NCBI GenBank assembly: GCA_918797485.1
Contig: CAKKNE010000005.1
Span: forward strand, 4,960,001 to 5,024,000
Source: Pelagomonas calceolata
Taxonomy: Eukaryota; Sar; Pelagophyceae; Pelagomonadales; Pelagomonadaceae
Direction: 5' to 3'
DNA: 64,000 nucleotides
Each line of letters opens with the position of its first letter. The first letter of the stretch is position 1. The notes below the pieces were generated by a model. It had not been told where the DNA came from, ran no database searches, and saw nothing but the letters and a program-made list of their open reading frames with translations. The translations under genes were made by a program, and so were the position numbers. Below, piece by piece: positions 4,588 through 63,263 of the stretch.

Positions 4588-4608
4588 CTAGTGTCTTACT
4601 GCCGCTAG
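4588..4608 (+). promoter_or_regulatory. Recurrent promoter motif, copy 1
   Basis: CTAGTGTCTTAC, TG, CCGCTAG. It lies between the divergent ATGs at 4418 (minus) and 4719 (plus), about 170 and 110 bp from each. Confidence 0.7.
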
Positions 4609-4718
4609 GACCGATCCCGGGGCCTTTGTCTCGTGTGTGCGCCTGCTCTGCGCTTTGATGGTCCCAGATTGTATTCACGGGAGTTATTGATCCTGTTCTC
4701 TCGTTTGCCGACCGCTGG

Positions 4719-5660
4719 TTGCCCACGCGCTGCACCCCAGGCTGCACCACTACCACGCCGCTCCAAGGGAACCGCATGCGCAGCCGCGAAAAGATGTACC
4801 AAGCTTTCGCGCGGAACGACCCTGAGCTGCGCGCGCGGCGCAAGCTCGAGCGGGCGGCCGCGCGGCGCCGCAACGACCAGAACTGGGGCGCCATCTGGGC
4901 CGCGCCCGCAGCGGCGCCCGAGCCTGTCGCAGTGGTGCCGCCGCCCGCATCGCCTGACGACGCCGCGGCGCCGGCACCCGCGCCCGAAACCGCGGCTAGT
5001 GACGCCGAGCCAGCGGCGGCACTGGTTGCGCTTTTGCGAGCACGTGACGAGCCGGCGGCGGCGGCGGCGCTCTCGCACGAGGAAGCCGCGGCGCCACCGT
5101 CATTACACGACGACGCCGAGCCCGCGGCGGCGGAGCCGTCGCACTCGCCGCGTGACGACGCCGCCGCAAAAGCAAGAGCCTTCGCCCAGAAGCGCCAGCA
5201 GCACTACAACATGGCCGGGCTCCTAGGAAGGAAGTGGGATGAGGAAGACGAGATGGAGGACGACGACGCAGCGCCACCGCCACCACACGACGACGCCGCG
5301 GCGCCGTCGCCGCCGCCACCCTCGGAAGACGCCGCGCCACCACCGCCGCCGCACGAGTCGGACGACGAGTCCCCGCCGCTCCGCCTCCCGGCGACGGGCC
5401 AGACGGGCACGCAGTGGTCGCAGTGGACGACGGGCCCGGCGTCGCAGCGCGCGGCGTCGCAGTGGGCGTCGCCGCCGCCGCCGGAGTGGGACGACGCGCT
5501 CCGGCGGCGCCTGCGCGCCGCGGCGCCGGTCGACGCCGCGAACGCGGCCTGCGTGGCCTACGCCGCCGACGAGCGCGCGCGCGCCGCGCTGCCGACGATG
5601 AACGTGTCGCGCGGGGACGTGGACGTGCTGTTCGCGCCCGAGGAGGGGGCTTGGGACTAG
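4719..5660 (+). CDS. Ala/Pro-rich protein resembling protein phosphatase inhibitor 2
   Basis: 313 residues from 4719; Met at 4776 is an alternative start. Most of the protein is disordered, with A, P, D, E and H-rich imperfect repeats (for example DDAAAPPPPHDD-type units). Two short islands look conserved: NDQNWGAIW near residue 52, similar to the KSQKWDEMNI-type PP1-docking site of inhibitor 2, and FAQKRQQHYNM near residue 154 followed by an acidic run, similar to the KRKLHYNE motif through which inhibitor 2 covers the PP1 active site. Order and spacing agree with that family. Inhibitor 2 regulates protein phosphatase 1 in nucleus and cytosol. The rest of the protein is not alignable by eye, so this is a motif-based proposal. 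Confidence 0.5.
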   Translation: MPTRCTPGCTTTTPLQGNRMRSREKMYQAFARNDPELRARRKLERAAARRRNDQNWGAIWAAPAAAPEPVAVVPPPASPDDAAAPAPAPETAASDAEPAAALVALLRARDEPAAAAALSHEEAAAPPSLHDDAEPAAAEPSHSPRDDAAAKARAFAQKRQQHYNMAGLLGRKWDEEDEMEDDDAAPPPPHDDAAAPSPPPPSEDAAPPPPPHESDDESPPLRLPATGQTGTQWSQWTTGPASQRAASQWASPPPPEWDDALRRRLRAAAPVDAANAACVAYAADERARAALPTMNVSRGDVDVLFAPEEGAWD

Positions 5661-5701
5661 GTATGTGAATGTATCTTATGACAGGGGCGCGCGTGGCACG
5701 T

Positions 5702-7346
5702 TCAGTCCATGCCTGGTATTTTGATATGCATGAGAACTGCAAAGCGCCCCTCGGCGGCCTCGCCGAAGTTGACGAAGATGATGCCGTCTTCTAGGGCAGT
5801 TCGCTCGTGGAAGACGTTCGTGTCAATCTTGAGTTCAATCGCCCCCTCGCCGGAGAGGAGGGCGGCGCCCGGCCGCGTGCCTTTGACCGAGGGAATGCCG
5901 ACATAGTAATGAGTTGGATACGGATTCCGTCTGTGCTGAGGAGAATCGTGTTGATGCGTCTGCGGATTGAGTCGTAACTCTGTGGGCATCGCAATGTCGA
6001 CTCGCGTGGCCCTGAGGAGCGTGAAGAGACTTTGCGTCGAAGTCCTTGAGGGGTTTCAAAACGCCATTATCTGTCTGAGGGACGGCGTCCTGGTCCAGAC
6101 TCACAAGTGGCACATTATTTTCCGCCATCACTCTCAACAGCTCGGCGTAGGTCGTGAGAGGCGGCCGCGAGGAGTCGTGGCACTCCGCCCGAAAGTCAGC
6201 GTCACCTAGCTTTCCTATTTTTTGTTCAAACTGGTTGTGCGGTTTCGGGACTTTGTTCGTCCACGCCGTGGGCAGGCGGTGGTCGGAGGCGACGGATCCC
6301 AGGACGAGGCGCAGATCGGCGGCCATCGCCTCGTAGTCATCGGGCGTCAGCGGTTGAGGCGTCTCATTAGTACCCAAAAAGTTGTTGCTAACGACGTGAT
6401 GTTGTACGAGGGAGACATTGGTCACAACAACGGTCAACCGCCGCCCTTTCAGATGATCGAAGAGCGCGCCGAGCGAGTATTTGGTGATCTGAGTGAGCTG
6501 CGCGCGGTCGCAGGGCCCCTTGCCGTTGGCTTCGTCGACGGTCAGCACGCGCGAGTGCGTCATGGCGAGCCCGCGCGAGAGGTCGTCCTGCTCCATCTGC
6601 GAATACCCTAACAGCGTCGTCGCGCCCTCTTTTTGCGCGTCGGACCACGTGGCCGGGCACCGGAAGATCTGGACGTTGTCCGATGCTCCGCCAGGCGGTC
6701 CAACTGGAAGAGATTTTGGTCCGCCAACCGACTGCCGAGCGTGGCGGAACTCGACGGACTCCGCACACCGCTGGAGGAGCTCGCGCGTGAGATTAGCAGC
6801 TTTCCCCGCTTTCTGCCGCGCGATCAACTCCTTCTTGACCGCCTGATCGTTGAGGCCGTCCGACGGGCGGCAGTACAGGTGCTCGAGCCAAGCGCGCGGC
6901 GTGGCTCGGTTTATCGCCGCGGGCCGCGTCACGACGGCCTTGTAGTCCAGGTTCATGGTCTTGCAAACTAAAGGAACCGCACTAGAATGTTTTATGAGCG
7001 TGTCGACCGCGGCGGCCGCACTGCGCTTGAGGACGCCGCGCGACAAGGGCACGTCGTAGTACATACCTGCCACGATGCGCACCGGTTTCGGCGGCACTGG
7101 ATCGTCGATCTCATCGGCCCGGAAGTACTGATGCGGCTGGGCGCGTAGCGCGTGCCGCTCGCCGCTCTTGTCACTGACGCACACTAAATATTCGAGGACC
7201 TTATGTCTTGTGTCGCCGCGTAAACGGCAGTACGGAAGCGGCTTACAGATGATGTTCGCGCCTTCTTCGGTGTTCACGTAAAATGCCGCGTTCGCGCCAT
7301 ATTTTGCGAGGTGCTGCGCCGCCGTTAGCCGTTCCTTGGGCGGCAT
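5702..7346 (-). CDS. Unrecognised protein with a frame change near its C-terminus
   Basis: The main frame runs from ATG 7346 to a stop at 5835 (503 residues). Its last part, from about 6030, becomes rich in S, H, T and R and looks non-coding, while another minus frame gives a coherent end (about 85 residues, ending ...RFAVLMHIKIPGMD) to the TGA at 5702-5704. The frame switch needs removal of 1 mod 3 bases. A 19-nt GT...AG segment near 6010-6030 would join the frames, but a single-base indel is equally possible. The long part includes hydrophobic beta-like stretches (RRLTVVVTNVSLVQHHVV) and no catalytic signature that I know. It shares an upstream region with the small gene at 7655. Confidence 0.55.
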
Positions 7347-7627
7347 ATTTTTTACCGCGCCGCTGTATGGATGAAACTTCTTTAGCGCCTCGGCGTTGAG
7401 CTTCTTGGCCGACGGCTAGCGAGCGCGCTGCTTCTACACGCTCCTTTACGAAGCGCGAGCGTGTGCCTGAGAGCACCAAGGCCTCTCCTTGCTGTTTAGC
7501 TACGTAACTTGTACGAGCGCTTCCGAGCGCGTGCGTGGGCTTGAGAGCTGGTGTTTAGCACGCGTTAGAGCACCGCGCGGCCGTGCTGTCGCTGAGTTTG
7601 GTTGTGCGTGTGGCCTGTTTGTTGTTT

Positions 7628-7650
7628 CTAGTGTCTTACTGGCCGCTAGC
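7628..7650 (+). promoter_or_regulatory. Recurrent promoter motif, copy 2
   Basis: CTAGTGTCTTAC, TGG, CCGCTAGC, between the divergent genes starting at 7346 (minus) and 7655 (plus). The first in-frame ATG of the plus gene is only 4 bp away, so the true start may be elsewhere or the 5' UTR is minimal. Confidence 0.65.
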
Positions 7651-7654
7651 CTTT

Positions 7655-8092
7655 ATGCTGGAAAGAGTGAAACGCGGCACGTGCGGCGTTTGGACGTCGG
7701 TTGTTGCCGAAAGACGCCGCTACAGTGAGGAGATCAAGCTCCGGTGAAACTCCGATTGGAGCGGTGCCGCATAAAAAAAAATAGAGAGGGCTACCACAAG
7801 CCCAGCATGTCCAGGTTGATTTATGCACAGGTTTCTCGTCGAGTTGTCGGACGGCGAGTACGCGCTGGAGCGCGCGCCGGATGCAGTCGGCGGCTACTGT
7901 ATCCTGAGCTACACGCCGGGCCCGCCGGGCTACGTCAGCATCGTCGTCGTCAAGCGGGCCGGCTCGGATAACCAGGCCGGCCGCGGCTGCTGCGTCCAAT
8001 CGGCGGACGAGGCGCTCCTGCCGTCGAAGCCGTCCTCGGAGACGCTCCTTGAGTTCTCGGAGGCGTCGTCTTCTCCGGCGGCGGCGGCGTGA
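7655..8092 (+). CDS. Small unknown protein, two exons
   Basis: Exons 7655-7743 and 7831-8092 give 116 residues. Without splicing the first exon stops at once (CGG TGA); splicing at CG|GTGAAA and GCACAG|G joins it smoothly to the downstream frame (...EEIKLR-FLVELSDGEYALER...). The 87-bp intron ends GGTTGATTTATGCACAG, very like the 3' end of the introners elsewhere in the window, but its 5' end is too diverged to call. The second exon alone (ATG 7823) would give 89 residues. The product has a beta-rich middle (YCILSYTPGPPGYVSIVVVKR) and an Ala/Ser tail. No family recognised. Confidence 0.5.
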
Positions 8093-8119
8093 GCTGTGGG
8101 TAAAACTAGTACTTATGAA

Positions 8120-9086: not shown

Positions 9087-9299
9087 TAATACTTCCGCGC
9101 GCGCGAAGGCTTCGAGCGCTGCGACGGCGTGCACCTTTTGCCTCAGCTGGCAATGTGCAGCAGCGCAGTTCGCAGGGCGCAGCAGCGCAGTTGCAGGCGC
9201 GCAGTTCGCAGCGCTCGCAGCGGTATTACAGAGTACAGACACACGTCGGCCGCCTTTTTGCGGATAGCTAGCGTTGCTCTTTGTGCGGCCCAAGGCGTA

Positions 9300-9318
9300 G
9301 CTAGCTGTAACACACTAG
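9300..9318 (-). promoter_or_regulatory. Recurrent promoter motif, diverged copy 3
   Basis: Minus strand reads CTAGTGTGTTACAGCTAGC, a shortened variant of the motif that lacks the GCCG core. It lies between the 5' ends of the divergent genes at 9086 (minus) and 9541 (plus). Confidence 0.45.
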
Positions 9319-9540
9319 CTGGCACAGCCAAAACACAAAAAAAGGCCCGCCTCCGCCTTGCTATTGCCTAAGGCGTGCTGTTCTATTGTTTAGAACTGTC
9401 TGCCAAAAAGCTCTCCCGTCGCTGACGCGAGCACGCCTTCGAGCGTGCGCTACAGAGCCTCAGATTTGAGCACTCTGCTGGTCAGCCTCGCCGCCGGCGC
9501 GTGCGCGCTACAGATTCAAAAACAGAGCTCACAACAGAGC

Positions 9541-10260: not shown

Positions 10261-10383
10261 GCTCGCTTGCTGTCATGTTTGTGTGTAAATGTATCTCAGG
10301 AGTAAGGGCGTTCAAGTACTTGCACATGCCAGGGGTACTACCCAAGAGTTATATGATGTCCTTAGGAAGGGGTGCCAAAAATA

Positions 10384-12368
10384 TCAGTTGAGGTCCCGCA
10401 GCGCCGCCTTGACGCGCGCCGCCGCCGCGTCGAGGTCGCGCCGCCGCTCCTCTCTCAGAGTCCGGCGGCGCCGCTCGGCGTACGACCGGGCGTGCGGCGG
10501 CGCCTTCCGCGACTCGGCCTCGAGCAAGTCCCGCTGCACGTTCAGCTCCAGCAGCTTTCTTTCAAGAGGAGCGCGCCGCGCCGCGTGGGCCTCGTCGCGT
10601 GTCGTCGCGAAGGGCGCGCCGTCGCGGGGCGAGAAGGGCGTCGGCGCGCCGGCGAGCCGCGGAGCCGCGGGCTCGGGGCCGACTTGGGGCGGCCGGTAGC
10701 CCGCGGCGTGCTTGCTGTGCTGGGCGGGCGCGAACGCGGCGAGGGGCGTCGGGCCGGCGGCCAACCGCTGAGAGGGGCTTCCGGGAGGCTGATGTGAGTT
10801 TGGGCGAGGCGGCGGCGGCGGCGGCGCGAGGTCCGCCGACGCGCGGAGGCGCGAGGTCCTCACGTCCGCGTCGCGCGGCGGCGCCGCCCGCTCGCTCCGC
10901 AAGCGAGCGATCTCGGCGGCGTTGCGGCGCACCTCCTCGCCGAGCGCGTCGTGGGCCGTCCGGAGATCCGCATGCGCGCGGCGCCAGCCGTCGACGGCCG
11001 CGCGCGCCTCCGCCGCCGCGGCCTCGGCGCGGGCCGCGCGCGCGTCCGCCTCCGCGCGCGCGTGGTCCGCGTCGCGCCGCTGGAGCCCGGCGCGCTCGAG
11101 CGCGCCGGCCGTCGACCTGTGTGGAAATCAAAATTTTACGGCGCGTATCCAGGTCGGCCGCGTGCACCCGACACACTGGTTGATTTCCACACAGCCGTCG
11201 ACGCGACGCGGTCGTCAGCGTCGCGTGCTGACGCCTCGAGTGCCGCGACGCGGCCCTGCAAGGCCTCGACGGCGACGGCGTCGCGGCCGCGCGCGGCGGC
11301 CGCCTCGACCGCGTCGTCGCGGAGCTGATCTATTAAAGTCCGCGCGCGGGCCAGCTCGTCGTTTAACGTGCGCGCCTCGGCCTCGGCGTCGAGCTTTACC
11401 TGGCGGTCGCGCCGCGCCTGGTCTCTCAAAGCGGCCGCCTCGCGCTCGGCGGCGTCGACGCGCCGGCGCAGCGTCTGCAGCTCCGCGTCGCGGTCGCGCG
11501 ACGCGCGCAGCGACTCGCGCGACGCGCGGGGGTTGAACGGCTCCTCGCGCGATGCGCGCGGGTTCGGTTCCGGTTCCGGTTCCGCCGGCGCGGCCGGCGC
11601 CGGCGCCGGCGCCGCGTCCCACGCGGCCGCCCGGCCCGCCTGGCGCACGGCGACGGGCAGCCGCGCGGGGCCGAGGCGCGGCCCCGCGGCGTAGTTTGAC
11701 AGGGGCACGGGACCCGGCCGGTCGTACGCGTCGTCGGGCTCGTAAGGTTTTTGCGTTCGTGGCGGGAATACGTCGCCCAAGCCGCCGGCGTGAGGTACGG
11801 GCGACGGCGGCGGCGAGTTCCGCACGCGCCCGCCCGGCCGGAAGGCCTCGGGCGACGGCGCCGCCGGTTTTTCAATGGAGGGCGACCGCGGCTTCCACAT
11901 CGTGCGGTGGCGCGCCTCCGGCGAGTCCGCCTTGGGCGGCGCCTGCCACGCCTTGGGCGAGGCCGGCGGGCTGTTGGCCACGGGCCCGCCGCTCCGAAAG
12001 GCCTCGGGCGAGGTCACGCCCACGGCCGCGGCGGCGGCGGCGAGCTCCTTGACGACGATGGGCGCCGGCTTCTTCCGCGGTGAGGATGTGGCGACGGGCG
12101 ACGGCGGCGGCGTCTCGTCGAGGTCCACAGGCGGCGGAGGCGTGTCGTTGGCCACGGTGTCCACGAGGCTCGACGCCGTGGCGTAGGCCGCGCGGGCCGT
12201 CGCCGTCAGGGTCTCCGCGATGGTTGGCTGCGCCTCCTCGACGGTCGGCTCGGCGTCGAGCGCGACGACCTCGACAGTGTCGTGCACGTCGTCGTTGTCC
12301 GCTTTTTGAAAGGGCAGGAACTCCGAGTTGCCTTGCAGTTCTCCTTCGTCGCCTTTGTCGTCGGCCAT
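10384..12368 (-). CDS. Large coiled-coil protein interrupted by an introner
   Basis: Exons 12368-11203 and 11116-10384 give 632 residues. The first 300 residues are acidic then Pro/Ser-rich with a repeated SPEAFR.GG.V.NSPP.SP unit. A long coiled coil follows (roughly residues 290-480), rich in A, R, E and D, and the end has a conserved-looking helix (LERKLLELNVQRDLLEAE...RRRRTLREERRRDLDAA). The intron falls inside the coiled coil: unspliced reading stops inside the element, while removing 86 bp (element plus one 8-bp duplication) continues the heptads exactly. A cytoskeletal or centrosomal role is only a guess from the coiled coil. The upstream region has one promoter-motif copy. Confidence 0.75.
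11117..11194 (+). mobile_element. Introner element 1 (78 bp) in the coiled-coil gene
   Basis: Perfect terminal inverted repeats CTGTGTGGAAATCAA / TTGATTTCCACACAG. Perfect 8-bp target duplication CCGTCGAC at 11109-11116 and 11195-11202. On the coding (minus) strand the intron is 11202-11117: the GT comes from the target duplication (GTCGACGG), the AG is the element end (CACACAG). Inserted antisense to the host relative to the other copies. Confidence 0.92.
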
Positions 12369-13689
12369 TTGCGAGGTCCGCGTACGAATGCAAGGGCAAA
12401 CCGTAGGATGCAGCGTTTCTTTTTTGCTGGGACGTAGAGCCTTGGCGTCGCTGTCAGCGCAGCGTATGAGCTGAGAGTATTATTAGTTGACGCAGAAATG
12501 GCGTAACGCAGCAAAACTGAGGGCGCGCGCATAAAACCGCGACTTTGCAAGTTATGCTGCGCGGCTAGCGGCCTGTAAGACACTAGGGGAAACCGCATTA
12601 ATCCATACAATAGGTGTTTAAGCATGCACCCACGCGTGTCCCGTCTCGCCGCCCGTCTCGCGCTTTGCGTCGGCGCAAAAGCCCTCTGAGGCGGCGTCTG
12701 AGAGGCAAAATATCAGCCTAAATAGCGCGCGCTACAGCGCTGCTCCGAAGCTTTGGGCTTCTCCGGGAGCCTATCCAGCGAGGACTGCTCGCCGCTGCGC
12801 TGCGCCAGCTCTCAGCGCGCCGCCGCGGCTCTCCTGCGCCAGCACAGCTGTGTTTGCAGACATGCGCTCTAGTGTAGCGTGCCACGGCCACGAGATGGCC
12901 GACAATAAAAAAAACATGACGCCCGAGTAGCGCCAGAGGCCACACGAAAGTGTGGCCGCAAAAGAAAGAAAAAAAACTCGACGCCAACCAGAGCTGCTGG
13001 CGCCGGCTCCTCTATGTGCAAGGGTGACACGAGAACTGTGACGGCTCGACGACGAGCGGCTACGGGATAAGGCGCCGCGCGCAAGGAAGGAACGGCGGCG
13101 CCGCCACTGCCCACGATCACTTAGTATGTCCGTCCGTGATTCACGCCGCTGGACTTTGCTTCCTCTTGGGTGACAATGTTTACCTGATAACCGGGTGATC
13201 ACGTGGCCGTCGGAAAAGTGGTCGGGCTGAGTGGCGGTGGTCTGCTCCGAAACGTTCTCCTCCGAGGCGCCTCCTCGAGAAAGGACATCTCCGCGGGCCC
13301 GCACACGTGCTCGCAGTGCTCAGGTTAAGGGCACGCCAAGCTCTTCGCGTTCAGTGGATGGTTTCCGCAGAAACCGGATCAAGTCTCGTCCCTGCTGTGA
13401 GGGAACGAGCTGTAAGGAGGATGGGAGAGGAAGGACGGCACGCCTCCTCCAGAGCGCGATGATCGCATCGAGCACGCGGCCGCGGGGTTGTGCGAGATCA
13501 GGAGGGGGGCGCGCGCGGTGCTTGAGACGTGGGCCTGGCATAGAGCGTCGCCGTGGGCTGGTGGTCGGCGACGGTCTTCGCGCCTACGAGCGATTGAGAG
13601 TACTCATGGACGCGGCCTGCGGGGTAAACAAGATCGTGAGCTGAGTTACTGCCGTGCGGCGCACCTCAAATGGCCTCGACGACGTCAGA
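12369..13689. other. Gene-poor region upstream of the minisatellite
   Basis: About 1.3 kb holding the 5' region of the coiled-coil gene and one promoter motif. Several open frames exist, but all are Arg/Ser-rich shadows without recognisable domains. From about 13460 the sequence shows diffuse similarity to the 142-bp repeat unit (for example GCGTCGCCGTG and CATGGACGCGGCC...), suggesting decayed older units. No RNA gene seen. Confidence 0.45.
12564..12586 (-). promoter_or_regulatory. Recurrent promoter motif, copy 4
   Basis: Minus strand reads CTAGTGTCTTAC, AGG, CCGCTAGC: a consensus copy 196 bp upstream of the ATG at 12368 (minus). Confidence 0.7.
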
Positions 13690-15431
13690 CGCCGGCCGCG
13701 CCGTGTTGAACAAGGTCAAGGCGCTTCGAGGGCGGCGTGTTATGTGATCGTGACCTGTACTCGGCGTCGCCGTGAGCAAGGGCGACGTCGGATCTACCAA
13801 GTCGTGATCTAATGCTGATCTCGCGCCTCGACGCGGGCCGCGCCGTCCTGGACCAGGTCAAGGCGCTTCGAGGGCGGCGTGTTATGTGATCGTGACCTGT
13901 ACTCGGCGTCGCCGTGAGCAAGGGCGACGTCGGATCTACCAAGTCGTGATCTAATGCTGATCTCGCGCCTCGACGCGGGCCGCGCCGTCCTGGACCAGGT
14001 CAAGGCGCTTCGAGGGCGGCGTGTTATGTGATCGTGACCTGTACTCGGCGTCGCCGTGAGCAAGGGCGACGTCGGATCTACCAAGTCGTGATCTAATGCT
14101 GATCGCGCTCGACGCTGGGCGCGCCGTCCTGGACCAGGTCAAGGCGCTTCGAGGGCGGCGTGTTATGTGATCGTGACCCGTACTCGGCGTCGCGGTGACC
14201 AAGGGCGACGTCGGATCTACCAAGTCGTGATCTAATGCTGATCTCGCGCCTCGACGCGGGCCGCGCCGTCCTGGACCAGGTCAAGGCGCTTCGAGGGCGG
14301 CGTGTTATGTGATCGTGACCTGTACTCGGCGTCGCCGTGAGCAAGGGCGACGTCGGATCTACCAAGTCGTGATCTAATGCTGATCTCGCGCCTCGACGCG
14401 GGCCGCGCCGTCCTGGACCAGGTCAAGGCGCTTCGAGGGCGGCGTGTTATGTGATCGTGACCCGTACTCGGCGTCGCGGTGACCAAGGGCGACGTCGGAT
14501 CTACCAAGTCGTGATCTAATGCTGATCTCGCGCCTCGACGCGGGCCGCGCCGTCCTGGACCAGGTCAAGGCGCTTCGAGGGCGGCGTGTTATGTGATCGT
14601 GACCTGTACTCGGCGTCGCCGTGAGCAAGGGCGACGTCGGATCTACCAAGTCGTGATCTAATGCTGATCTCGCCTCGGCGGGCCGCGCCGTCCTGGACCA
14701 GGTCAAGGCGCTTCGAGGGCGGCGTGTTATGTGATCGTGACCTGTACTCGGCGTCGCCGTGAGCAAGGGCGACGTCGGATCTACCAAGTCGTGATCTAAT
14801 GCTGATCTCGCGCCTCGACGCGGGCCGCGCCGTCCTGGACCAGGTCAAGGCGCTTCGAGGGCGGCGTGTTATGTGATCGTGACCTGTACTCGGCGTCGCC
14901 GTGAGCAAGGGCGACGTCGGATCTACCAAGTCGTGATCTAATGCTGATCTCGCGCCTCGACGCGGGCCGCGCCGTCCTGGACCAGGTCAAGGCGCTTCGA
15001 GGGCGGCGTGTTATGTGATCGTGACCTGTACTCGGCGTCGCCGTGAGCAAGGGCGACGTCGGATCTACCAAGTCGTGATCTAATGCTGATCTCGCGCCTC
15101 GACGCGGGCCGCGCCGTCCTGGACCAGGTCAAGGCGCTTCGAGGGCGGCGTGTTATGTGATCGTGACCTGTACTCGGCGTCGCCGTGAGCAAGGGCGACG
15201 TCGGATCTACCAAGTCGTGATCTAATGCTGATCTCGCGCCTCGACGCGGGCCGCGCCGTCCTGGACCAGGTCAAGGCGCTTCGAGGGCGGCGTGTTATGT
15301 GATCGTGACCCGTACTCGGCGTCGCGGTGACCAAGGGCGACGTCGGATCTACCAAGTCGTGATCTAATGCTGATCTCGCGCCTCGACGCGGGCCGCGCCG
15401 TCCTGGACCAGGTCAAGGCGCTTCGAGGGCG
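13690..15431. repeat. Minisatellite, 142-bp unit, 11 full and 2 partial copies
   Basis: Near-identical head-to-tail units start at 13817, 13959, 14101, 14240, 14382, 14524, 14666, 14804, 14946, 15088 and 15230, with a partial diverged unit before (13690-13816) and a truncated one after (15372-15431). Period is 142 bp; the units at 14101 and 14666 are 139 and 138 bp. Two linked variants occur: type A (CCTGTACTCGGCGTCGCCGTGAGC) split as CCTGTACTCGGCG + TCGCCGTGAGC, and type B (CCCGTACTC...CGCGGTGACC) at the units starting 14101, 14382 and 15230. Since 142 is not a multiple of 3, the translated minus frames rotate and stop, so this is not a coding repeat. No spacers, so not a CRISPR array. Confidence 0.95.
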
Positions 15432-18400
15432 GCCTGCTCTTTTACCGTTGTGACCACCACTTCAGCATCCCAAGCAAGTTCATTGGTCTCATCTGCCGCC
15501 CAAGGGGTTGAGACAACTTTGTAAGGCATGGAAGTGTCAACCTTCGGCGCGCGCGCCGGCTGCGCGGTCACTTCTACTACATCGGGCGGCGGCTGCTCTT
15601 CTACCGTTGTGGCCACTTCAGCATCCCAAACAAGTTCATTGGTCCCATCTGCCGCCCAAGGCTTTGAGACAACGTTGTAACGCACGGAAGTCGCGCGCGG
15701 CGGCTGCGCCACCAGTTCTTCTACTTCGTGCGGTGGCTGCGGCGGCAACGCGGGCTGCGACGGCTCGACTGCATCAGGGACTGCTACCTCTATCGATGTG
15801 GCCGCGTCGGGCGCCTCCTCAACAATCTCTGGTAATACGGAGTCGCACGGCTCGGTGCACTTCCGACCCCCGTCTGCACAGGTCCAGTGTGCGCCTTCAA
15901 CTACTACGGTGCCTTTCTCGCGGAGGCGCCACTGTTCACACGTGTCGCAACAGGACCATGGCCTGTCCTGTCCTGTATCGTGCCAGTAGCATTTGACCTT
16001 GTTCCCGTCGGCCGCGGTGCGGCCGTTGCCCAGCTGCTGGGCGATCTTCGGCCACTTTCCCCACATGCTGCGGAACTTCTCCTCCAACACGACTATCCTC
16101 CGCTTCTCGTCTTCGGTCAGGGGCGTTTGGTTCGACTGGAGAGACGCGTAGTGTTGCAGGACGTACCCCTGATCCCACTGTATGCCCAGCTCGTTCAAGG
16201 CTTCGGCGATATAGTTCCACGATGCCTTTGCATCAGGACGGAGCTCCTTGGCTTTCTTCACAAGTAATTTGAGGACGTCGTCGCTGCTTAGGTTAGCGAG
16301 GGCTTCTGCATCTGCGCGGGCGGCATCAATAAGTGCGGCCACGTGTGACCTGCGCTGCGCCTCGCGGCCGTCGCCGCGCTCGCTGAACGCCTGCGCTACC
16401 TGCTGCAACACATCGCGGCACTTCTCGAGTACTTCAGCAAGCTCGCGACGCTCACCGTCGCCGTCAAACAGGATCTCATATAATGACTTGTGCTGGGCCT
16501 GGAAGACCCGCTCGACCGCGGCGACCGCGGCAACCTTCTTCGCTTGGTCGTCGGCACACGACTCTACTAATTTGAGAATCGCGTCCGAGGCCAAGGCGCC
16601 GTGCATCGAGACGTCCTTCACGTGGGCCTCGAGCGGCTTCTCGACGCCGAGCGCCTTGAGATCTTCGACAAGAGCTTTGCGCTGCGCCGCAAAGGCCGCG
16701 CCGCCGCCGGCGGCGCAGTGGCCCGACCACTTCTCGACCGACGCACCCAAGGGGATGACGTGCTTCCGGGTGCGGTGGATAATGACCGCGGCAAACTCGT
16801 CTTTGACATGGCGCCGCGCCGTCGCGTGCGGGCCGCTATAAGACGGGTGGTAGCGGAGCTCTACTCTGACCTGTGTGGAAATCAACCAGTGTGTCGGGTG
16901 CACTAAGTCATTTCTCGGCGATGACGCGGCCGTGCTGGACCCGTCAAACGATGAAGAACCGCCACCGCCACGCCATCGAGCAGGCGGCGCGTCGATGGCG
17001 TGGAGGACGACGCCGTAAAATTTTGATTTCCACGCAGACTCCGACGTCGCGGCCGTCCTTGCGGTACACGAGGAATGTTCTCTCCGCGTCGACGGAAGGC
17101 AGCTTGTCGTCGCCGGTGAGGAACCACAGAACATCGCGAACGGCTTCGTCCGCTTCGGTCACCTCGACGCAGATGTCCTCGTCGCCCACGATGCAGTCCA
17201 TGGCATAGGTGTGCTGGTCAATACCGAAGACCTGTATAGGAGATTGTCGATTCCGAGCGTGAAGGCTCGTCGGCGACGTCCAGACGACCGTGCAACCTCC
17301 ACGCCATCGATGCGATCGGAGTTTTGGACTCGGAAGGCGCACCTCGATTATGGTCCCGGGCCATTCCGATTTGCGGATGGCCTCAAACAGGCGGGGCGCG
17401 CCGCGTGCAAGATCTCCCGGCCGATCGGCCGGCTCGAGGACGGCATCGTTACTTCTCGAGGGCTGCATGGTGCTGACATTAAGATTGTGGATGGTGTCGA
17501 ACCACCTGTGCGCACATCAACCAGTGAGTCGGGTGCACGGCGACGACGCGGCCGTGCTTGATAACCCGAGCGGCGAGGGACCCAGATCGCCACGCGTAGA
17601 CGTGGCGTCGATGGCGCGGAGCTCGTCGCGACGGCTCGGCGACGGTTTGATTTGTGCACTGCAAGCCACGCGGCGCGGAGCTTATCAAGGCCGGCCGCGA
17701 CCGCCTCAGCGCGCGACTGGAACTGGTCTCGGGTGAAACCTACCTGAGCTAAGACTGATAAAGCGAGGCGCTCGATGGTCTGGCAGACTCGTTCCGAGCC
17801 ATCATCTGTTCTAATGCGGGCGCAGTTCACGTCCAACAAGTTGGAAGGTGATGCGGCGTCGTCGTCGACTGCGGCCGTACGCAACCAGTGCTCGGCTTCC
17901 GTCAAAGGCTCGGTGTCGGCGCGCGCGCTAATCGCGAGGTCGCGCGCCCAGCCAGCTACTAAAACGCGCTTGCTCTTGCCGGCGCCGAGGGGTAAGGAAT
18001 ACTGGAACTTCTCGTGGGGCTTCTTGTTCGCGTCCTTGACCGCGCCAGCGCGTAGGCTTCGCTCGACCTTCTTGAGGGCCGCGAGCAGGGAGGCTTCCTC
18101 GGCGTCGTCAGTGTCTTCGTAGTAAGACCGGGCGAGGCGCTCCGCGTGCAAGCGGTCGGCCCCGCCGGCGACCGAGAGCTCCACGCACGCGGCCTCGTAC
18201 ACGTCGCGTAGGACTAATACAGCAGCGAGCGCGGGCTCTTCGCCATCGCCGCGGTACTTCCGGAACAGGGGGCCGACTTCGACTTTCGCCACCGTCGCGA
18301 GCCGAGCTAAGCGCCGCGTAAGCCCTGGTACAATCTCCTCGTCCGTGCGCAGCATCTTGGCTTCGGCCGCGCGGGCTTTTGCTACCCGCGCGGCATGATT

Positions 18401-18766: not shown

Positions 18767-19484
18767 GGCGGCGCGCCGACTTTGCTCAGCGGCCTCGACC
18801 GCGCGCGCTAGGCGTCCGTGTATGTCGTAAAAGCGCTAATACAGGCGCGCCCGTAGTTCTTTTCGGCACGGTTCGGCCGGGATATATTTGCAATGAAGTT
18901 CCACAGTGATCGCGACTCAAATTTTGCGACGTGTGGACCATAAATTTGTCTCAACTGCGCCAACGAGGCTGGAAAAACCCGTTTTGATTTTGAGTCCACA
19001 CGAGAGGACAAGCGTGCGTTCACAGGTCCTCGAGCACAGACTCGTCTTTTGATTTGCCTCCAGGGCTTTCCCAAGCTGCTTCTTTGGACCCGATGGTTCC
19101 CGTAAAAAACGTCAATTACCCGATGCAGCGACGCTGGAAGGGCACTCGATGGGTGCAGTGCGCGGCGTCCGCTTTCCGTGCCTTTGTGATCTGTCTTCGT
19201 CTTAGGTCGATGGTGTTGTCATGTTTCCGGAACGGGCGGCGCGTCGTGTCTGCTTCGGCAGCGGTTCGACGAAATACTCCGAATAGCACCACAGACTGCT
19301 CGGACGGCACCCAGGTGATCTGTGTGCTGCAGGAGGGCTCGCAAAAAAGCGGCGGCAAAACCGAGCTAGCGGCAGTAAGACACTAGGCATTAAGCAGCGC
19401 GCAGCGCCTGATAATCTAATAGCCGTCGTCTGAGACCTCAGGAAGGTGGGACCACATTCATTTTACGCCATCGAGGCACAACAA
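18767..19484. other. Upstream region of the SANT/CW gene
   Basis: About 700 bp between the 5' end of the SANT/CW gene and the 3' end of the oxidase gene. A short inverted pair ACTCAAA (18915) / TTTGAGT (18989) bounds an 80-bp AT-richer segment with GTGTGGAC near its left end, reminiscent of an eroded terminal-inverted-repeat element, but no target duplication is visible. One promoter motif lies at 19365. No convincing gene. Confidence 0.4.
19365..19386 (-). promoter_or_regulatory. Recurrent promoter motif, copy 5
   Basis: Minus strand reads CTAGTGTCTTAC, TG, CCGCTAGC. About 600 bp upstream of the SANT/CW ATG at 18766, the most distant copy; the true transcription start of that gene may lie nearer. 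Confidence 0.6.
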
Positions 19485-20903
19485 CTAAGCCCGAAGAAGC
19501 GCCGGCCGGTCGAGCCGGAACGTCTCTAAAGAAAAAGGCAGCTTCACCCCCAGCGCGAGCGCCGCCGCGGCGTCGCCGATGGCCGGGCCCATCTTGAAGG
19601 CGTGGCCCGAGCCGCCGCCCGCCAATATGATAGGCGCGCCCGCGCCAGGAACTTTATCAAGCACGTAGTGGTAGTCCGGCGTCGTCGTGTAGAGGCAGGA
19701 CTCGCTCCGGAAGGGCGTGGCTTCCAGCCCCGGGAAGAAGCTCGCCACGAAGCGTTGGTTCGCTTCGATTATGGAAGGGTCGCCTTGATGATCGTGGCTC
19801 CGCAGCGCCTTCTCATCTAATGTTTGACCGACGTGGTGCGCCGCGACCTTGACGCCCTGTGTCTTGACGATGGGGATGCCGTAGTAGCCCAAATCGCCGA
19901 GGCCGTTGTTAAGATCCGAAATAAAAACGGGCATTCTTTTATAACCGTAGACAGCTTTACTTCCTTTCGGCTTGAAGTAGGACACCGTTTCCCGCGTCAC
20001 GGTCGTGGGTACATGAAGATTGAACCACTTTTTAGCTATTGAGGTCAGCCACGCGCCCGGCGCCACGATACAACTCCGGCCGACGATCCTTTCCTTATTT
20101 CCGAGGCGCACTTCAACAGAATCGGCCCGGCGCTTTACTGAAACAACATCAGAACCCTCCCTCACGTCTACCTTAAGCTTCCGCGCGAGTTCATAAGCTC
20201 TCGCCATCGCGACCTGTGTGGAAATCAAATTTTACGGCGCGTTCGTCGCGTCGTCCTCCACGCTATCGACGCGACGCTTGCTCGATGGCGTGGCGATGCC
20301 GGTTCATCACCACTCGACGGAGCCAGTGCACCCGACACGCTGGTTGATTTCCACACAGATCGCGACGTCGGCGAACAGTACCCCAAAGTCCGGCTGGTAC
20401 AGCGCCGTCGTGTTCTTCGGGGCCGAGAACTGGGGGAAGCGCTCCTTGAGCTTCTTTCTAGATAATTTCTCGTGCGCGAGGCCCCGCTTCCGGTAAATCT
20501 TGGTAAGATCATCTAAACCGCCGTGCGAGTCATAATTTCCACCTTGCCCGGAATAGAGCGAAACGCCGCCCGTGTGGGCCAGCACCTTGCTCGTCGCATC
20601 ATTCAGTTCGCCCCAGTAGGACAGCGACAGGTACATCATGTCGACGTAAATCTCGTCGGCGTACGCGAAGCGGTAGATGCGGCCGTCGCCGTGCGACGAG
20701 CCCCGCGCGTGGCCCTCCGTGTATTTCTCGACGAGGCAGACGGTCCTGTTCTGCCTTGCTGCCGCGATGGCGGACCAGACGCCCATGACGCCTCCTCCCA
20801 CCACTACAACGTCGTACTGCACGGGCTGCGGTTTGCGCAGCCGTTGTGCTGCCAATGCTGCGAGCGCTGCTGCTGCGGCGCCGAGTCGGAGGAGTATATG
20901 CAT
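19485..20903 (-). CDS. FAD-dependent amino-acid/sarcosine oxidase-like enzyme, one introner
   Basis: Exons 20903-20367 and 20213-19485 give 421 residues. The N-terminus is a hydrophobic segment (MHILLRLGAAAAALAALAAQ), then a dinucleotide fold YDVVVVGGGVMGVWSAIAA and a charged end of strand 2 (VCLVEKY), typical of the DAO family. GSSHGDGRIYRFAY matches the FAD-contacting region of monomeric sarcosine/pipecolate oxidases, and the C-terminal ILAGGGSGHAFKMGPAIGDAAAAL matches the second FAD motif. These enzymes oxidise N-methyl or cyclic amino acids, releasing hydrogen peroxide, often in peroxisomes; here the leader suggests membrane or secretory targeting. The intron lies at FAD|VAMARAY, phase 0. 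The substrate is not determined. Confidence 0.87.
20214..20358 (+). mobile_element. Introner element 4 (145 bp) in the oxidase gene
   Basis: Perfect terminal repeats CTGTGTGGAAATCAA / TTGATTTCCACACAG and perfect 8-bp target duplication ATCGCGAC (20206-20213 and 20359-20366). Intron on the coding strand 20366-20214 (153 bp), GT from the duplication (GTCGCGAT), AG from the element end. The element carries the ACGGCG...CACCCGACAC ends and the inverted core (CCACGCTATCGA...TCGATGGCGTGG). Antisense to the host. Confidence 0.93.
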
Positions 20904-21075: not shown

Positions 21076-21097
21076 GCTAGCGGCAGATAGACACTAG
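21076..21097 (-). promoter_or_regulatory. Recurrent promoter motif, copy 6
   Basis: Minus strand reads CTAGTGTCTATC, TG, CCGCTAGC (two changes in the left half). Between divergent ATGs at 20903 (minus, 173 bp) and 21262 (plus, 165 bp). Confidence 0.65.
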
Positions 21098-23573: not shown

Positions 23574-23596
23574 GCTAGCGGCCAGTAAGACACTAG
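23574..23596 (-). promoter_or_regulatory. Recurrent promoter motif, copy 7
   Basis: Minus strand reads CTAGTGTCTTAC, TGG, CCGCTAGC. Between divergent ATGs at 23403 (minus, 171 bp) and 23774 (plus, 178 bp). Confidence 0.7.
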
Positions 23597-26440: not shown

Positions 26441-26464
26441 CTAGTGTCTTACTGGGGCGCTAGC
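26441..26464 (+). promoter_or_regulatory. Recurrent promoter motif, copy 8
   Basis: CTAGTGTCTTAC, TGGGG, CGCTAGC: spacer one base longer and the first C of the right half lost. 160 bp upstream of the Hsp110-like ATG at 26624. Confidence 0.65.
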
Positions 26465-29925: not shown

Positions 29926-29948
29926 CTAGTGTCTTACAGGCCGCTAGC
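29926..29948 (+). promoter_or_regulatory. Recurrent promoter motif, copy 9
   Basis: Consensus CTAGTGTCTTAC, AGG, CCGCTAGC, 202 bp upstream of the ATG at 30150. The upstream neighbour points the same way, so this copy serves one gene. Confidence 0.7.
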
Positions 29949-32228: not shown

Positions 32229-32251
32229 CTAGTGTCTTACACGACGCTAGC
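32229..32251 (+). promoter_or_regulatory. Recurrent promoter motif, copy 10
   Basis: CTAGTGTCTTAC, ACG, ACGCTAGC. Between divergent ATGs at 32149 (minus, 80 bp) and 32383 (plus, 132 bp). Confidence 0.65.
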
Positions 32252-35583: not shown

Positions 35584-35606
35584 GCTAGCGGACTGTAAGA
35601 CACTAG
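35584..35606 (-). promoter_or_regulatory. Recurrent promoter motif, copy 11
   Basis: Minus strand reads CTAGTGTCTTAC, AGT, CCGCTAGC. Between divergent ATGs at 35389 (minus, 195 bp) and 35873 (plus, 267 bp). Confidence 0.7.
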
Positions 35607-47702: not shown

Positions 47703-47724
47703 CTAGTGTCTTACAGCACGCTAG
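47703..47724 (+). promoter_or_regulatory. Recurrent promoter motif, copy 12
   Basis: CTAGTGTCTTAC, AGC, ACGCTAG. Between divergent ATGs at 47448 (minus, 255 bp) and 47901 (plus, 177 bp). Confidence 0.65.
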
Positions 47725-54316: not shown

Positions 54317-54339
54317 CTAGTGTCTTACAAACCGCTAGC
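54317..54339 (+). promoter_or_regulatory. Recurrent promoter motif, copy 13
   Basis: CTAGTGTCTTAC, AAA, CCGCTAGC. Between divergent ATGs at 54130 (minus, 187 bp) and 54583 (plus, 244 bp). Confidence 0.7.
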
Positions 54340-54582
54340 CGTGATCCCTCCGGCAGATATCCTCCCGAGCAAAGACCCGTACGCGACGAGCTCCCGCCTA
54401 AAAAAGAATTGCCAAGCGCCGGGTGCCTGCCAGTTGTCTGCGCTGCGCACAGCGCAGATCATAGCAAAGCACGCGCGACGCACGGGGCAGCCCGCATTCG
54501 TAACGATCGCTGCGGATGGCCAGCCGACGCGTACGACGAACCGCGGGCCCGCTCGGGCAGCCCTGATGGCTGAGCAGACAAT

Positions 54583-57091: not shown

Positions 57092-57151
57092 CGTCGCGTC
57101 GACCTCCACGCCATCGACGCGGCGCCTGCTCGATAGCGTGGCGGTGTGGTT
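57092..57151 (+). repeat. Introner core fragment without terminal repeats
   Basis: CCTCCACGCCATCGACGCGG followed by CGCCTGCTCGATAGCGTGGCGG matches the inverted core inside introner elements 2 and 4, but no CTGTGTGGAAATC end or target duplication is present. It lies just downstream of the voltage-sensor gene. Probably a decayed insertion. Confidence 0.6.
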
Positions 57152-58517: not shown

Positions 58518-58967
58518 GGTTGTAGCTGGTCTTTGTTACAGCGCAGTTGGTTGGTGGTGGAGCGAGGTATCAGCCTGCTCGCGATGTGTTTTTTTGCGTC
58601 AAACGTAGCTTGCAAAAGCTCCAATTGCGATGGAAGGGCCTCGGAGCAAAAAGTTGCCTCGCTAACTAAAGGCACTAGCACTAGCATCCGTCCGAGCGCG
58701 ATCCAAACGTCCCCGGACCCGTCGCCCCCGCAGCCAGGCGTCCCTGGGCGTCGCGGGCCTCCTGGCGGGTGCGGCACCCACCAAACAAAAGCGGCAGGCA
58801 CGCGGCCAAAGCTGCCCCGCCGGCGCCCGCCGGAGCCAACGCCAGCGGACGACGGCCGCGCCAGCAGGCCGACTCGACTCCGGGAACCGACGGCCCGCGG
58901 GGCTGCCCGCCGGAAGCAGCACCAGGACAAACAAGCAGCCCAAAAAGACTTGGCTGCCCGCCGGACC

Positions 58968-60434: not shown

Positions 60435-60473
60435 CGGTCTCGTCTTTATTAAGTAGGGTTCGAAAACTGACCA

Positions 60474-60959
60474 TTACGCGCTCCCCTCCGGCGACGGCGT
60501 CTCGCGGGCGCGGAGAAGCGCCTCACCGGCACGGACCGCTTCTCGCAAGCGTCGCGCGGTATCCTCCATCCCCCCCACGTCCGGATGCGCGCTCCCGAGC
60601 ACGCGCAGCGCGGTCGGTGCCAAATCCTCGAGTTCATTCGCTGCCTCGCGGAGATCATCGAGCGTCATACAGGGGTCTTCGTAGAGCGCCATCACGTAAT
60701 GTTTTCTCAACTTGAGCGTGGTGTTATTACTCTCTCCGAGAACGCGTCGTGCCACGGGAATCGTTCGGCGCAGCAGTGCCTTGGCTTCTTTGAAGCGTTC
60801 TAGACGAACAAGGCATGACGAGTAGTTAAGGGCTCCTATAATAGTTGCTTCATATTCTTCGCCCTGTAACTTTAGACGTACGGAGTATACGATTCGCTCC
60901 ATCCTTAGGGCCTGTTCGTTCCGTCCAAGACTTTTATACGCAGTTGCAAGATTGCTCAT
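60474..60959 (-). CDS. Kinesin-light-chain-type TPR protein, probably N-terminally truncated
   Basis: 161 residues from Met at 60959; the frame extends slightly upstream before an in-frame stop. Two and a half TPR units of the KLC/NPHP3 type are visible (SNLATAYKSLGRNEQALRM, GALNYSSCLVRLERFKEAKALLRRTIPVARRVLG) followed by a TLDDLREAA...RVLGSAHP end also seen at 28964-29281. Full proteins of this kind have many more repeats, so the gene may have an unseen upstream exon or be a fragment. Such TPR proteins usually serve protein-protein binding. Confidence 0.55.
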   Translation of the reverse strand: MSNLATAYKSLGRNEQALRMERIVYSVRLKLQGEEYEATIIGALNYSSCLVRLERFKEAKALLRRTIPVARRVLGESNNTTLKLRKHYVMALYEDPCMTLDDLREAANELEDLAPTALRVLGSAHPDVGGMEDTARRLREAVRAGEALLRARETPSPEGSA

Positions 60960-60983
60960 ACAGGCAACTACGCGCGGCTCCAA

Positions 60984-61344
60984 GCCCTGGCGGAGACCCT
61001 CGGCGCGAGACGTCCGCGCGGATCGATTTGCTGCACGTTAAATAGCCGCGCCGCGGCGAGCGCTCACAGGTGAGTCGTTTATTATCTCCAGGACACCGGC
61101 GCGTGCGTTTTGCGTTGCAATAGATCGGCTGGCTTACAGCTGGGGTGGGGCAATTTATGAAACCGCTCGCGCGAGAGCAGTTGAGGTTGTGAGGGTGGTC
61201 TGGCGGTCCTAGACACGCCGCAGCGCCGAGTCTTGACTTGTCGAGCCGACGCGCGCGCCCAGGAGCGGCACGTGTGTCGAAAACAACGAACCACTGGCCA
61301 CCCCAAGGCCACGCCGCGGCGACTCAACTACTACACACTACTTC
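60984..61344. other. Short intergenic region with nothing recognised
   Basis: Between the TPR gene 5' side and the 3' end of the small basic gene. No promoter motif, repeat or RNA gene visible. Confidence 0.4.
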
Positions 61345-61842
61345 TTACCCTCGCCGCGGGAAAAAAACGCTGTGCCGCGACTGGTGCTTCTTGTGCTTGC
61401 CGCGAAAACCCAAAGGCCGGCCCTCGTTTTTGTTGCCCTTCGCGCGTCTCTGGATAATCTTTTTCGACCCCTTCTGCCAGCTCCTGAGTTTATTCCAGTG
61501 CGCGAGGACGGCGGCGGCCTCCGTCTTCCGCGAGCACTGGGCGCAGGCTCTTTCAATAATGTTATTCGCGGTCGCGTCGTGCTTCAGCGACTCGGCGGCT
61601 TCCGAAATATGCTTGTTGCGCGCTCGCGCGAGAATGACGTTCCGCGCCTTCACAACATGAGAACACTTCGTGAGCGCCCGCCGCAGCTCGGGGTCTCCCA
61701 ACTCAATGGCGAGCCATGCCACCAACGCGTCTTTGTCGTCGCGGCAGACGACGGGTCGGGGCTCCTGGCCCTTGGGCGCGTGGCGTTCTTTCTGCGGCTT
61801 GCGCGTCGCCGGCGCGTCGCCGTCGGTCATGTCACTCGACAT
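61345..61842 (-). CDS. Small basic protein of unknown function
   Basis: 165 residues from the ATG at 61842 (MSSDMTDGDAPATRK). The middle is helical and charged (DKDALVAWLAIELGDPELRRALTKCSHVVKARNVILARARNKHISEAAESLKHD), and the C-terminus is strongly basic (GSKKIIQRRAKGNKNEGR...), compatible with a nucleolar or RNA-binding protein. No domain recognised. The promoter motif at 62041 is 199 bp upstream. Confidence 0.5.
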   Translation of the reverse strand: MSSDMTDGDAPATRKPQKERHAPKGQEPRPVVCRDDKDALVAWLAIELGDPELRRALTKCSHVVKARNVILARARNKHISEAAESLKHDATANNIIERACAQCSRKTEAAAVLAHWNKLRSWQKGSKKIIQRRAKGNKNEGRPLGFRGKHKKHQSRHSVFFPRRG

Positions 61843-62040
61843 GGTTGCGGCGCGCAGCGGTTGCAGCACAGTGTCTGGGAGAGCGGTGAGTGCTTAAGCG
61901 CTGAGGAGTGTAGGACTGCTCGAAAAAGCACGGCAGTGCTGCTTGCACAGCGAATGCGCCACGTTTATGTGGTCAAACCGTGCCAGTCGTGCGCGCAGCC
62001 GCTTTATCGCCTGCAATCGAGTCTGTCTTGCAAGGGATCC

Positions 62041-62063
62041 CTAGTGTCTTACAGGCCGCTAGC
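62041..62063 (+). promoter_or_regulatory. Recurrent promoter motif, copy 14
   Basis: Consensus CTAGTGTCTTAC, AGG, CCGCTAGC, 199 bp upstream of ATG 61842 (minus). A second copy lies 72 bp further on, the only paired case in the window. Confidence 0.7.
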
Positions 62064-62134
62064 GATTCCTAAACGCGCCAGAGTCCTGAAAGCCGCGCCC
62101 CGGAGCGGTACCCCCTCAACTGCGTTGGAGCTTG

Positions 62135-62157
62135 CTAGTGCCTTACAGGCCGCTAGC
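62135..62157 (+). promoter_or_regulatory. Recurrent promoter motif, copy 15
   Basis: CTAGTGCCTTAC, AGG, CCGCTAGC (one change). Same orientation as copy 14 and towards the plus gene starting at 62521 (or 62248). Confidence 0.7.
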
Positions 62158-62520
62158 TTCCCAAGCTTTTTAACTTGTTTGCAGGCACGGCGCCGCAGAA
62201 GCTAAATACCCGCACGTTAGGCAATTTGGGCCCTCCCTCCAATCTCGATGGGGGCACCTCCGTGGCAAGCTAGTGTCGTCGTGTGCTTAGGATCCCCCTG
62301 GGACCCAACAGGCCTAGTTTCGGGACCCCTGGGCCTAGTTTCGCCGCGCCCGTCCAAATCACCTGCACTCTTTGCCAGAGTCTTTGGCTCACCCTTGACG
62401 GGTTTTCCACCCTACCCTCACCCGCACCCTTCTCCCAGACTGGGCACCCTTCACCCTTACCCTCGACGGGTAAACGCGGGTAAAAGGGTGCCACCCTTGC
62501 CCTTTTGCTGCCCTGCGCGC

Positions 62521-63189
62521 ATGCCGTCGCCACCACGACCCGACGTCGACATCGAGGGCTCCGACGCGGAACTAGAACGGACCATGTGCACGCCGGTCCA
62601 GCGCCACGCGCCGGCGCGCGACGCGCCCTGGTCGGCGCCGGGCGCGGTGTTCAGGCCCATCTGCGCGAGCCCGCTCACGCCGCCCAACGCGACGTCGGAG
62701 ATCAACCGCCACGCGGCGCGCCACGCGGTCGAGTGCTATGTGGTTTATGGCGCGAAGCTCGCGGCGCGGCGCGGCGGCAAAGGCCCTTTTTCGCCCGGCG
62801 CCGCGGCCGTCGCCGCGGCGCGCGCGAAGTGCCGCCTGCTCTGCCGCGAGGCCGGGACGCGCCGCGCGTTACGACGGCAGCTCGTCAAGGCCGTCGACGC
62901 GCGGCGCGGCAAGGAGTCGCGCGCCAATGGGCTTCTGAGGGAGCTCCTCTCAGAATTACGGGAGCTGGACGGCATCGGCTCGCCGGAGCCGTGCACGCCG
63001 TTCTCGCCGAAGCGGATGAACTTGCGGGGCGCCGTGCGCGTGCCCCTGCCGCCTTCCGAAATTGATCGAGTTGGCGCCGAATTGAGTGAGATGCGAGGCG
63101 GGCTGTCGCGGCGGGACGTCGGGATCGCGGTCGTCGTCGCCGGGCTCGGGGCATTGACGCTCGCGGCGACGACAGTTTTCGGCGCATAA
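62521..63189 (+). CDS. Tail-anchored protein of unknown function
   Basis: 222 residues from ATG 62521; the frame is open to 62248, but that part overlaps repetitive ACCCT-rich sequence and is not protein-like. The body is helical and Arg/Ala-rich (AAARAKCRLLCREAGTRRALRRQLVKAVDARR, LLRELLSELRELDGIG). The last 24 residues form one hydrophobic helix (DVGIAVVVAGLGALTLAATTVFGA), so it is likely a C-terminally anchored ER or mitochondrial outer-membrane protein, SNARE-like in layout but without a recognisable SNARE motif. Function unknown. Confidence 0.55.
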   Translation: MPSPPRPDVDIEGSDAELERTMCTPVQRHAPARDAPWSAPGAVFRPICASPLTPPNATSEINRHAARHAVECYVVYGAKLAARRGGKGPFSPGAAAVAAARAKCRLLCREAGTRRALRRQLVKAVDARRGKESRANGLLRELLSELRELDGIGSPEPCTPFSPKRMNLRGAVRVPLPPSEIDRVGAELSEMRGGLSRRDVGIAVVVAGLGALTLAATTVFGA

Positions 63190-63240
63190 CCTTTTTGTTT
63201 TGGTGACCTGTCGCCGCGATGGCGTCGAGGAGTCGCTCGG

Positions 63241-63263
63241 CTAGTGTCTTACAGGCCGCTAGC
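63241..63263 (+). promoter_or_regulatory. Recurrent promoter motif, copy 16
   Basis: Consensus CTAGTGTCTTAC, AGG, CCGCTAGC, 273 bp upstream of the Bet3 ATG at 63536. Confidence 0.7.

Follow-up and report, generated by a model that had tools for sequence, protein, structure and literature searches.

General regulatory factors of yeast deplete nucleosomes, and their repertoire shifts between lineages, according to the available part of PMC2897762. Promoter elements described in oomycetes are 7–16 nucleotides (nt) long, forward-biased and placed mostly within 50–100 nt of the ATG (available part of PMC3599244). The genome of Pelagomonas calceolata RCC100 was described as 32.4 Mb in six nuclear contigs plus organellar contigs of 90 kb (plastid) and 39 kb (mitochondrion), with 63% GC and 16,667 genes; in the available portion of the main text of that paper the words ‘motif’ and ‘promoter’ are absent (PMC9481584). 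Here, a dispersed bipartite motif, CTAGTGTCTTAC-N(1–6, mostly 4)-CGCTAG, was characterized in a 64,000-nt stretch of this genome (C5:4,960,001–5,024,000, GC 63.4%; the window) and genome-wide. The motif is nearly invariant and 22 nt long. It is probably a double-stranded site for a putative general promoter factor that acts in either orientation, akin to yeast Reb1 and Abf1.

The genome scan covered 32,445,274 bases in eight contigs, six large ones summing to 32,315,327 and two small ones of 90,574 and 39,373. The exact motif with a spacer of 1–6 nt was found 2,049 times and was absent from the reversed control. Use of both orientations, noted in the initial annotation of the window, extended to the whole genome, with 1,031 copies on one strand and 1,018 on the other. 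The 12-mer CTAGTGTCTTAC alone occurred 2,364 times as compared with once in the control, and the spacer-4 motif, allowing up to three mismatches, 2,536 times as compared with 12. The window is denser than the genome: it has 13 exact 12-mers, as against about 4.7 predicted from the genome mean and 0.003 from base composition. Further counts used a 244-kb sample made up of the window and 18 nuclear stretches of 10 kb chosen without regard to the motif; 13 of these were placed by hand (three at C1 2.60–2.86 Mb, within or close to a low-GC region) and five came from a random list. The 12-mer occupied 31 3-kb bins of this sample and ranked top for dispersal among non-simple 12-mers.

The spacer of exact and CTAGTGCCTTAC sites was 4 nt in 23 cases, 3 nt in nine, and 2 and 5 nt in one each. 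Within the window TTAC and CGCTAG are separated by 0 (at 9301), 3, 4 or 5 nt, and outside it also by 2 nt and, at one listed place, by 6 nt. The near-palindromic character originally ascribed to the motif holds for its outer CTAGYG half-sites, while the centre, TCTTAC, is asymmetric. A weight matrix built from 51 sites revealed a weak preference for GCTTG before the motif and CTC after it, with little information in the outer flanks. The summed matrix columns hold roughly 35–40 bits, a figure inflated by the selection of sites by match; about 15 bits would suffice to mark 2,000–3,500 places in this genome. The exact motif (spacer 2–5) was absent from the virus contigs scanned, and neither RNA families nor tRNAs (ARAGORN with the bacterial code) were found in the window. 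No earlier description of the motif was found in the literature searched, supplementary files lying outside the search; GTAAGACACTAG as an exact string gave no literature match, CTAGTGTCTTAC a single one, to a paper on diphthamide, and promoter and motif terms had no match in PMC13284251.

Placement relative to genes was assessed with a coding model trained on the 18 stretches, the window and eight motif-bearing loci (L001–L008), the counts being restricted to the 244 kb. Forty-four sites with up to three mismatches were present, 25 of them between divergent genes, 15 between tandem genes, one between convergent genes and three at stretch edges. None lay in coding sequence, though predicted coding sequence makes up 67% of the sample. 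Among gaps of at least 20 nt, those with the motif numbered 22 of the 46 divergent ones, 14 of the 62 tandem ones and 1 of the 48 convergent ones; the motif was found in 11 of the 33 tandem gaps of at least 300 nt and in none of the five gaps shorter than 20 nt. The tandem share is probably understated, because some tandem gaps are introns. Three sites (32229, L010:6392 and L027:5941) abut predicted coding blocks, the first overlapping the block edge by 1 nt, and may reflect wrongly predicted starts. The initial annotation had placed the motif never in coding sequence or in 3′–3′ gaps. This holds in the window; outside it, the single convergent site among the 44 departs from the rule, and two more sites stand at coding edges. 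Equal frequency inside genes or in 3′ regions, which would speak against a promoter element, was thus not seen in the sampled part of the genome (0/44 coding, 1/44 convergent).

For genes with the motif in their upstream gap, the distance from motif to predicted ATG had a median of 189 nt, and 23 of 55 distances fell within 160–200 nt. Orientation relative to the gene made little difference: 29 sites were sense (median 180 nt) and 26 antisense (median 194 nt). In the 15 divergent pairs with both distances available, 15 of the 30 distances fell within 150–205 nt, an interval picked after inspection of the data, as compared with 4.1 expected at random, and 5,000 random draws never attained this number. 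Left–right asymmetry in the same pairs averaged 84 nt, as compared with 195 nt for random placement, the sites lying near the middle of the promoter.

Retention of the motif could be followed in a diverged lineage. A scan of prokaryote contigs for the exact motif (spacer 2–5) yielded seven stretches. Two were left out as probable chance matches, without comparison with RCC100 (L034, GC 0.55; L035, GC 0.43, titled Candidatus Palibaumannia). The remaining five, from contigs of marine metagenome-assembled genomes (MAGs) labelled Spirochaeta or proteobacterium, align in part to RCC100 chromosomes: L029 to C6 over 7.8 kb at 82%, L032 to C6 over about 10 kb in eight pieces at 83–94%, L031 to C4 in pieces at 82–88% with its motif-bearing piece at 70%, L033 to C6 at 89% over 0.34 of its 3.9 kb, and L030 to C1 at 90–96% over 1.6 of 8 kb. 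From these alignments, the aligned parts can be read as mis-binned DNA from wild Pelagomonas lineages. The presence of Pelagomonas-like nuclear DNA in L029–L033, within contigs filed as prokaryotic, is contamination worth flagging in its own right.

These five stretches carry seven motif sites, all non-coding by the coding model, and the RCC100 counterpart carried the motif in all seven cases; six of the MAG sites had been found through an exact match, whereas the RCC100 side was free of this selection. Over the 18 fixed positions, four RCC100 counterparts were unchanged, one had an inserted base and two had one substitution each (TGTTAC, TCTCAC); in one unchanged pair both lineages have the unusual variant TCTTGC. 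Core identity, spacer included, was 0.90–1.00 across the seven pairs, whereas five of them had an 80-nt flank, or both, with an identity of 0.53–0.68, unrelated flanks giving a mean of 0.58 (standard deviation 0.05, maximum 0.69). In L030 and L033 the flanks are conserved too, so that these pairs are little informative on retention of the motif. At L032:5353 and L029:7907 the sites of the two lineages cannot be aligned base to base, and site turnover within the promoter is possible; at L032:5353 the same two aligned blocks flank the motif in both lineages. A separate observation concerns L032 (about 4380–4470) and L041, where some 80 nt between the motif and the likely ATG are nearly identical between lineages, coding DNA nearby differing by about 14%; this is an unusually conserved leader or regulatory stretch. 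Placement, preferred distance to the ATG, use in two orientations and retention in a diverged lineage all support the original proposal of a promoter element.

All 16 sites originally reported in the window were recovered at their positions, minus-strand positions having been taken at the G that opens GCTAGC, one base ahead of the core. The 12-mer is exact in 13 of them; of the others, 62135 differs at one position, and the copies at 9300 and 21076 are diverged. The coding model gives 11 divergent and five tandem sites, as compared with nine divergent in the initial annotation. On the plus strand, exact motifs in divergent promoters are found at 4588..4608 (spacer 3), 7628..7649 (spacer 4), 32229..32250 (spacer 4, a JmjC/cupin gene on the right), 47703..47724 (spacer 4, a Nuf2 gene on the right) and 54317..54338 (spacer 4). 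A further divergent promoter contains a pair, an exact copy at 62041..62062 and the one-mismatch variant CTAGTGCCTTAC at 62135..62156, both on the plus strand with spacer 4. The divergent sites of the minus strand are exact, with spacer 4, at 23575..23596 and 35585..35606 (an RNase P p30 gene on the left), and carry two mismatches at 9301..9318 (CTAGTGTGTTAC, spacer 0, AGCTAG) and 21077..21097 (CTAGTGTCTATC, spacer 3). The other five sites are exact. Two are on the minus strand, at 12565..12586 (spacer 4), upstream of the minus-strand gene 11194–12378, and 19366..19386 (spacer 3), between tandem minus-strand genes. Three are on the plus strand, at 26441..26463 (spacer 5), upstream of an HSP70/TPR gene, and at 29926..29947 and 63241..63262 (both spacer 4), each between tandem plus-strand genes.

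A general chromatin-opening factor serving both neighbouring genes would fit the promoter placement of the motif, the distance it prefers on each side and its use in either orientation. An abundant sequence-specific factor would bind the motif as a dimer or two-module protein, through inverted CTAGYG half-sites and with tolerance of a few nucleotides in the spacer. Placed about 175 nt ahead of the ATG, the motif would precede the start of transcription, and the bound factor would hold a nucleosome-free gap from which polymerase could start on either side or on both. Like the general regulatory factors of yeast, and unlike an ordinary activator, it would work by keeping nucleosomes away, and the genes served would be mostly constitutive. 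We infer the factor, its binding, nucleosome depletion and an effect on transcription from what the DNA itself displays, namely the site and its count, its avoidance of coding and 3′–3′ sequence in the sample, its preferred distance, its neutrality of orientation and its retention beside unalignable flanks. A/T tracts of at least 6 nt were most frequent in the 40 nt next to the site (10, as compared with 1–4 in each later 40-nt bin), a weak hint of possible nucleosome depletion.

Several observations weigh against a general factor of this kind. The motif is absent from 24 of the 46 divergent gaps and hence not universal. An exact copy at L009:5918–5939 lies between convergent genes, the sole such site in the 244-kb sample; either a small gene was missed by annotation or this is an exception. 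The MAG site L032:4291 was also modelled as convergent, via a short block of doubtful strand. The ATG positions on which the distances depend were predicted by our own codon model, introns being ignored. The information in the motif is far above the need, which is unusual for one ordinary factor and suggests either that two proteins read the same site or that selection in a very large population has been unusually efficient. Finally, the genes carrying the motif are only hinted to form a class. Among proteins of at least 200 amino acids (40 of 42 motif genes and 40 of 47 non-motif genes used), the share with a Pfam match at E 0.001 was equal, 23/40 and 22/40 respectively, a few of these matches falling under Pfam's own cut-off.

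This last comparison bears on the possibility that the motif is a regulon-specific site for an activator or repressor, such as a cell-cycle or growth factor, rather than for a general architectural factor. The motif genes include Nuf2, kinesin, ERCC1, RNase P p30, RPAP1, NUP50, SNARE and PTPA and resemble a cell-machinery set, while the non-motif genes are richer in transporters and metabolic enzymes, categories that were assigned post hoc. A regulon would account for this contrast and for the partial coverage of the gaps, the motif occurring in about one in two divergent and one in three long tandem gaps. However, the gene list is broad, its categories were assigned in hindsight on 80 proteins, and over two thousand sites would be large for a single regulon. 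We regard a regulon-specific site as unlikely.

The sharp distance to the predicted ATG could also be expected of a core promoter element fixing the start site or direction of transcription, like the INR, FPR and DPEP elements of oomycetes. Such elements lie mostly within 50–100 nt of the ATG with a forward bias in the available part of the oomycete study, whereas the motif described here lies about 180 nt away (median 189) and has no orientation bias (29 sense, 26 antisense). A core-element function is therefore very doubtful.

A tiny mobile element or relic, spread by insertion into open promoters, would explain why the copies are nearly identical, have inverted CTAG ends, occur in both orientations and prefer promoters, which are also frequent insertion targets. 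Some copies, moreover, have about 14 more nucleotides in common on the left (GGGATGC type), and L031 is matched at about twenty further places along some 30–71 nt surrounding its motif. Against this, the flanks of most copies share little, none of 44 sites is in coding sequence, and the core was retained while its flanks became unalignable in the other lineage. As to presence/absence polymorphism at orthologous places, the motif stood on both sides in 7/7 comparisons, but two of these pairs cannot be aligned base to base. Target duplications, named in the initial annotation as the mark of a mobile element, gave no signal in 24 tests on 64 sites, partly non-independent since they include MAG/RCC100 pairs (lengths 2–8, offsets 0–3; largest excess about two standard deviations). 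Spread by insertion thus appears highly improbable.

A replication-origin element in nucleosome-free promoters, to be expected in intergenic DNA in many copies per chromosome, is scarcely plausible, given the preferred ATG distance that is kept, the existence of close doubles (62041/62135 in the window and a pair 37 nt apart on C1) and the random spacing among the listed exact sites of C1. Over 0–2.59 Mb of C1, the 174 exact sites among those listed had a coefficient of variation of 0.92, within the 0.86–1.15 of random spacing, with no sign of over-regularity. Beyond them, no exact motif was among the sites listed for C1:2,587,734–2,927,313 (340 kb), where 22.8 would be expected, a gap to be read with caution, as the list allowing up to three mismatches omits sites at 2.42–3.01 Mb that are present in the exact list, and both lists may be incomplete. 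Each contig is described as having one low-GC, putatively centromeric region of about 259 kb, in which gene number is only slightly lower (available part of PMC9481584). Two sampled stretches in the low-GC region of C1 (48% and 51% GC) contained no motif site. The gap overlaps low-GC DNA that is probably centromeric, and promoters of another kind may serve the genes of this domain, or the annotation may overstate their number.

A second element, CTAGTGTGTCGATACRCTAG, was found among pairs of CTAG words. With up to three mismatches it matched 164 times on one strand and 158 times on the other genome-wide, and not at all in the control. Because the element is near-palindromic, many sites were perhaps counted twice, and the actual total is somewhere from about 160 to 320. 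It has the outer CTAGTG...C(G/A)CTAG in common with the main motif and differs from it in the interior. Its four copies with up to three mismatches in the stretches examined, motif-bearing loci included (L018:1333, L018:5990, L020:7510 and L003:2801) all lie outside predicted coding sequence, and none shares a gap with the main motif, though four copies are few and the gap of L003:2801 is cut by the stretch end. The resemblance suggests a family of factors with common half-sites, and the sharing of only the outer half-sites would favour dimeric binding. Extending this, we tentatively propose, as a possibility short of probable, a lineage-specific family of modular elements in Pelagomonas, and perhaps in pelagophytes at large. 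CTAGYG half-sites would frame swappable cores (TCTTAC-N4, more than 2,000; TGTCGATA, about 160–320), and a paralogous factor would read each of them; the core would thereby set the programme of a gene pair, and the half-sites would recruit a shared promoter-opening dimer.

Other dispersed words were also present. ACGCCATCGACGCG has 2,772 exact copies genome-wide and none in the control; it occurs in the window at 16964–17006, 20254–20296 and 57102–57144, and near the motif at L032:2199. By eye, related words form inverted pairs in some copies and could fold as a hairpin. The word GGGCAGCC (for example at 54485 of the window and L024:4564) occurs 0.7–0.9 times per kb in promoters (0 in tandem gaps with the motif), as compared with 0.10 in coding sequence and 0.13 in convergent gaps. 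Positions 13543–15539 of the window hold a tandem array whose repeat period is about 142 bp; a 300-nt reference copy is matched there at 12 places, at 63–100% and mostly at 95–98%. Short dispersed repeats (CCTGTGTGGAAATCAACCAGTGTGTCGGGTGC and relatives) lie at 11113, 11162, 16870, 17505, 20213, 20326, 30924 and 36953. They are perhaps ends of introner elements, which are mentioned in the available part of the genome paper (PMC9481584).

More than 2,000 near-invariant sites of 22 nt offer a handle for pulling down a main promoter factor with DNA. The motif could be used for annotating start sites and gene boundaries and for reading regulation from metagenomes. With over twice the information needed, it also provides a clean case for how very large populations sharpen binding sites.

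The motif resembles INR, FPR and DPEP of Phytophthora infestans in that these, too, are stramenopile promoter elements found computationally near start codons (available part of PMC3599244). By eye, the oomycete sequences YCAYTYY, MWTTTNC and SAASMMS, as given in the portion available, bear no resemblance to it. The likeness to the sites of yeast Reb1, Abf1, Rap1 and Cbf1 lies in their placement in promoters, independence of orientation, frequent sharing by divergent genes and genome-wide use. The Abf1 site is also bipartite with a spacer. In contrast to the yeast sites, the Pelagomonas motif is much longer and more invariant, and its spacer varies in length. The consensus sites of these four factors did not match the motif matrix by eye. 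Vertebrate ZNF143 and NRF1, whose sites are not known to resemble the motif in sequence, recognize long, promoter-centred sites that are common at bidirectional promoters. In length, in promoter-centred placement and in association with bidirectional promoters, the Pelagomonas motif and these vertebrate sites are alike.

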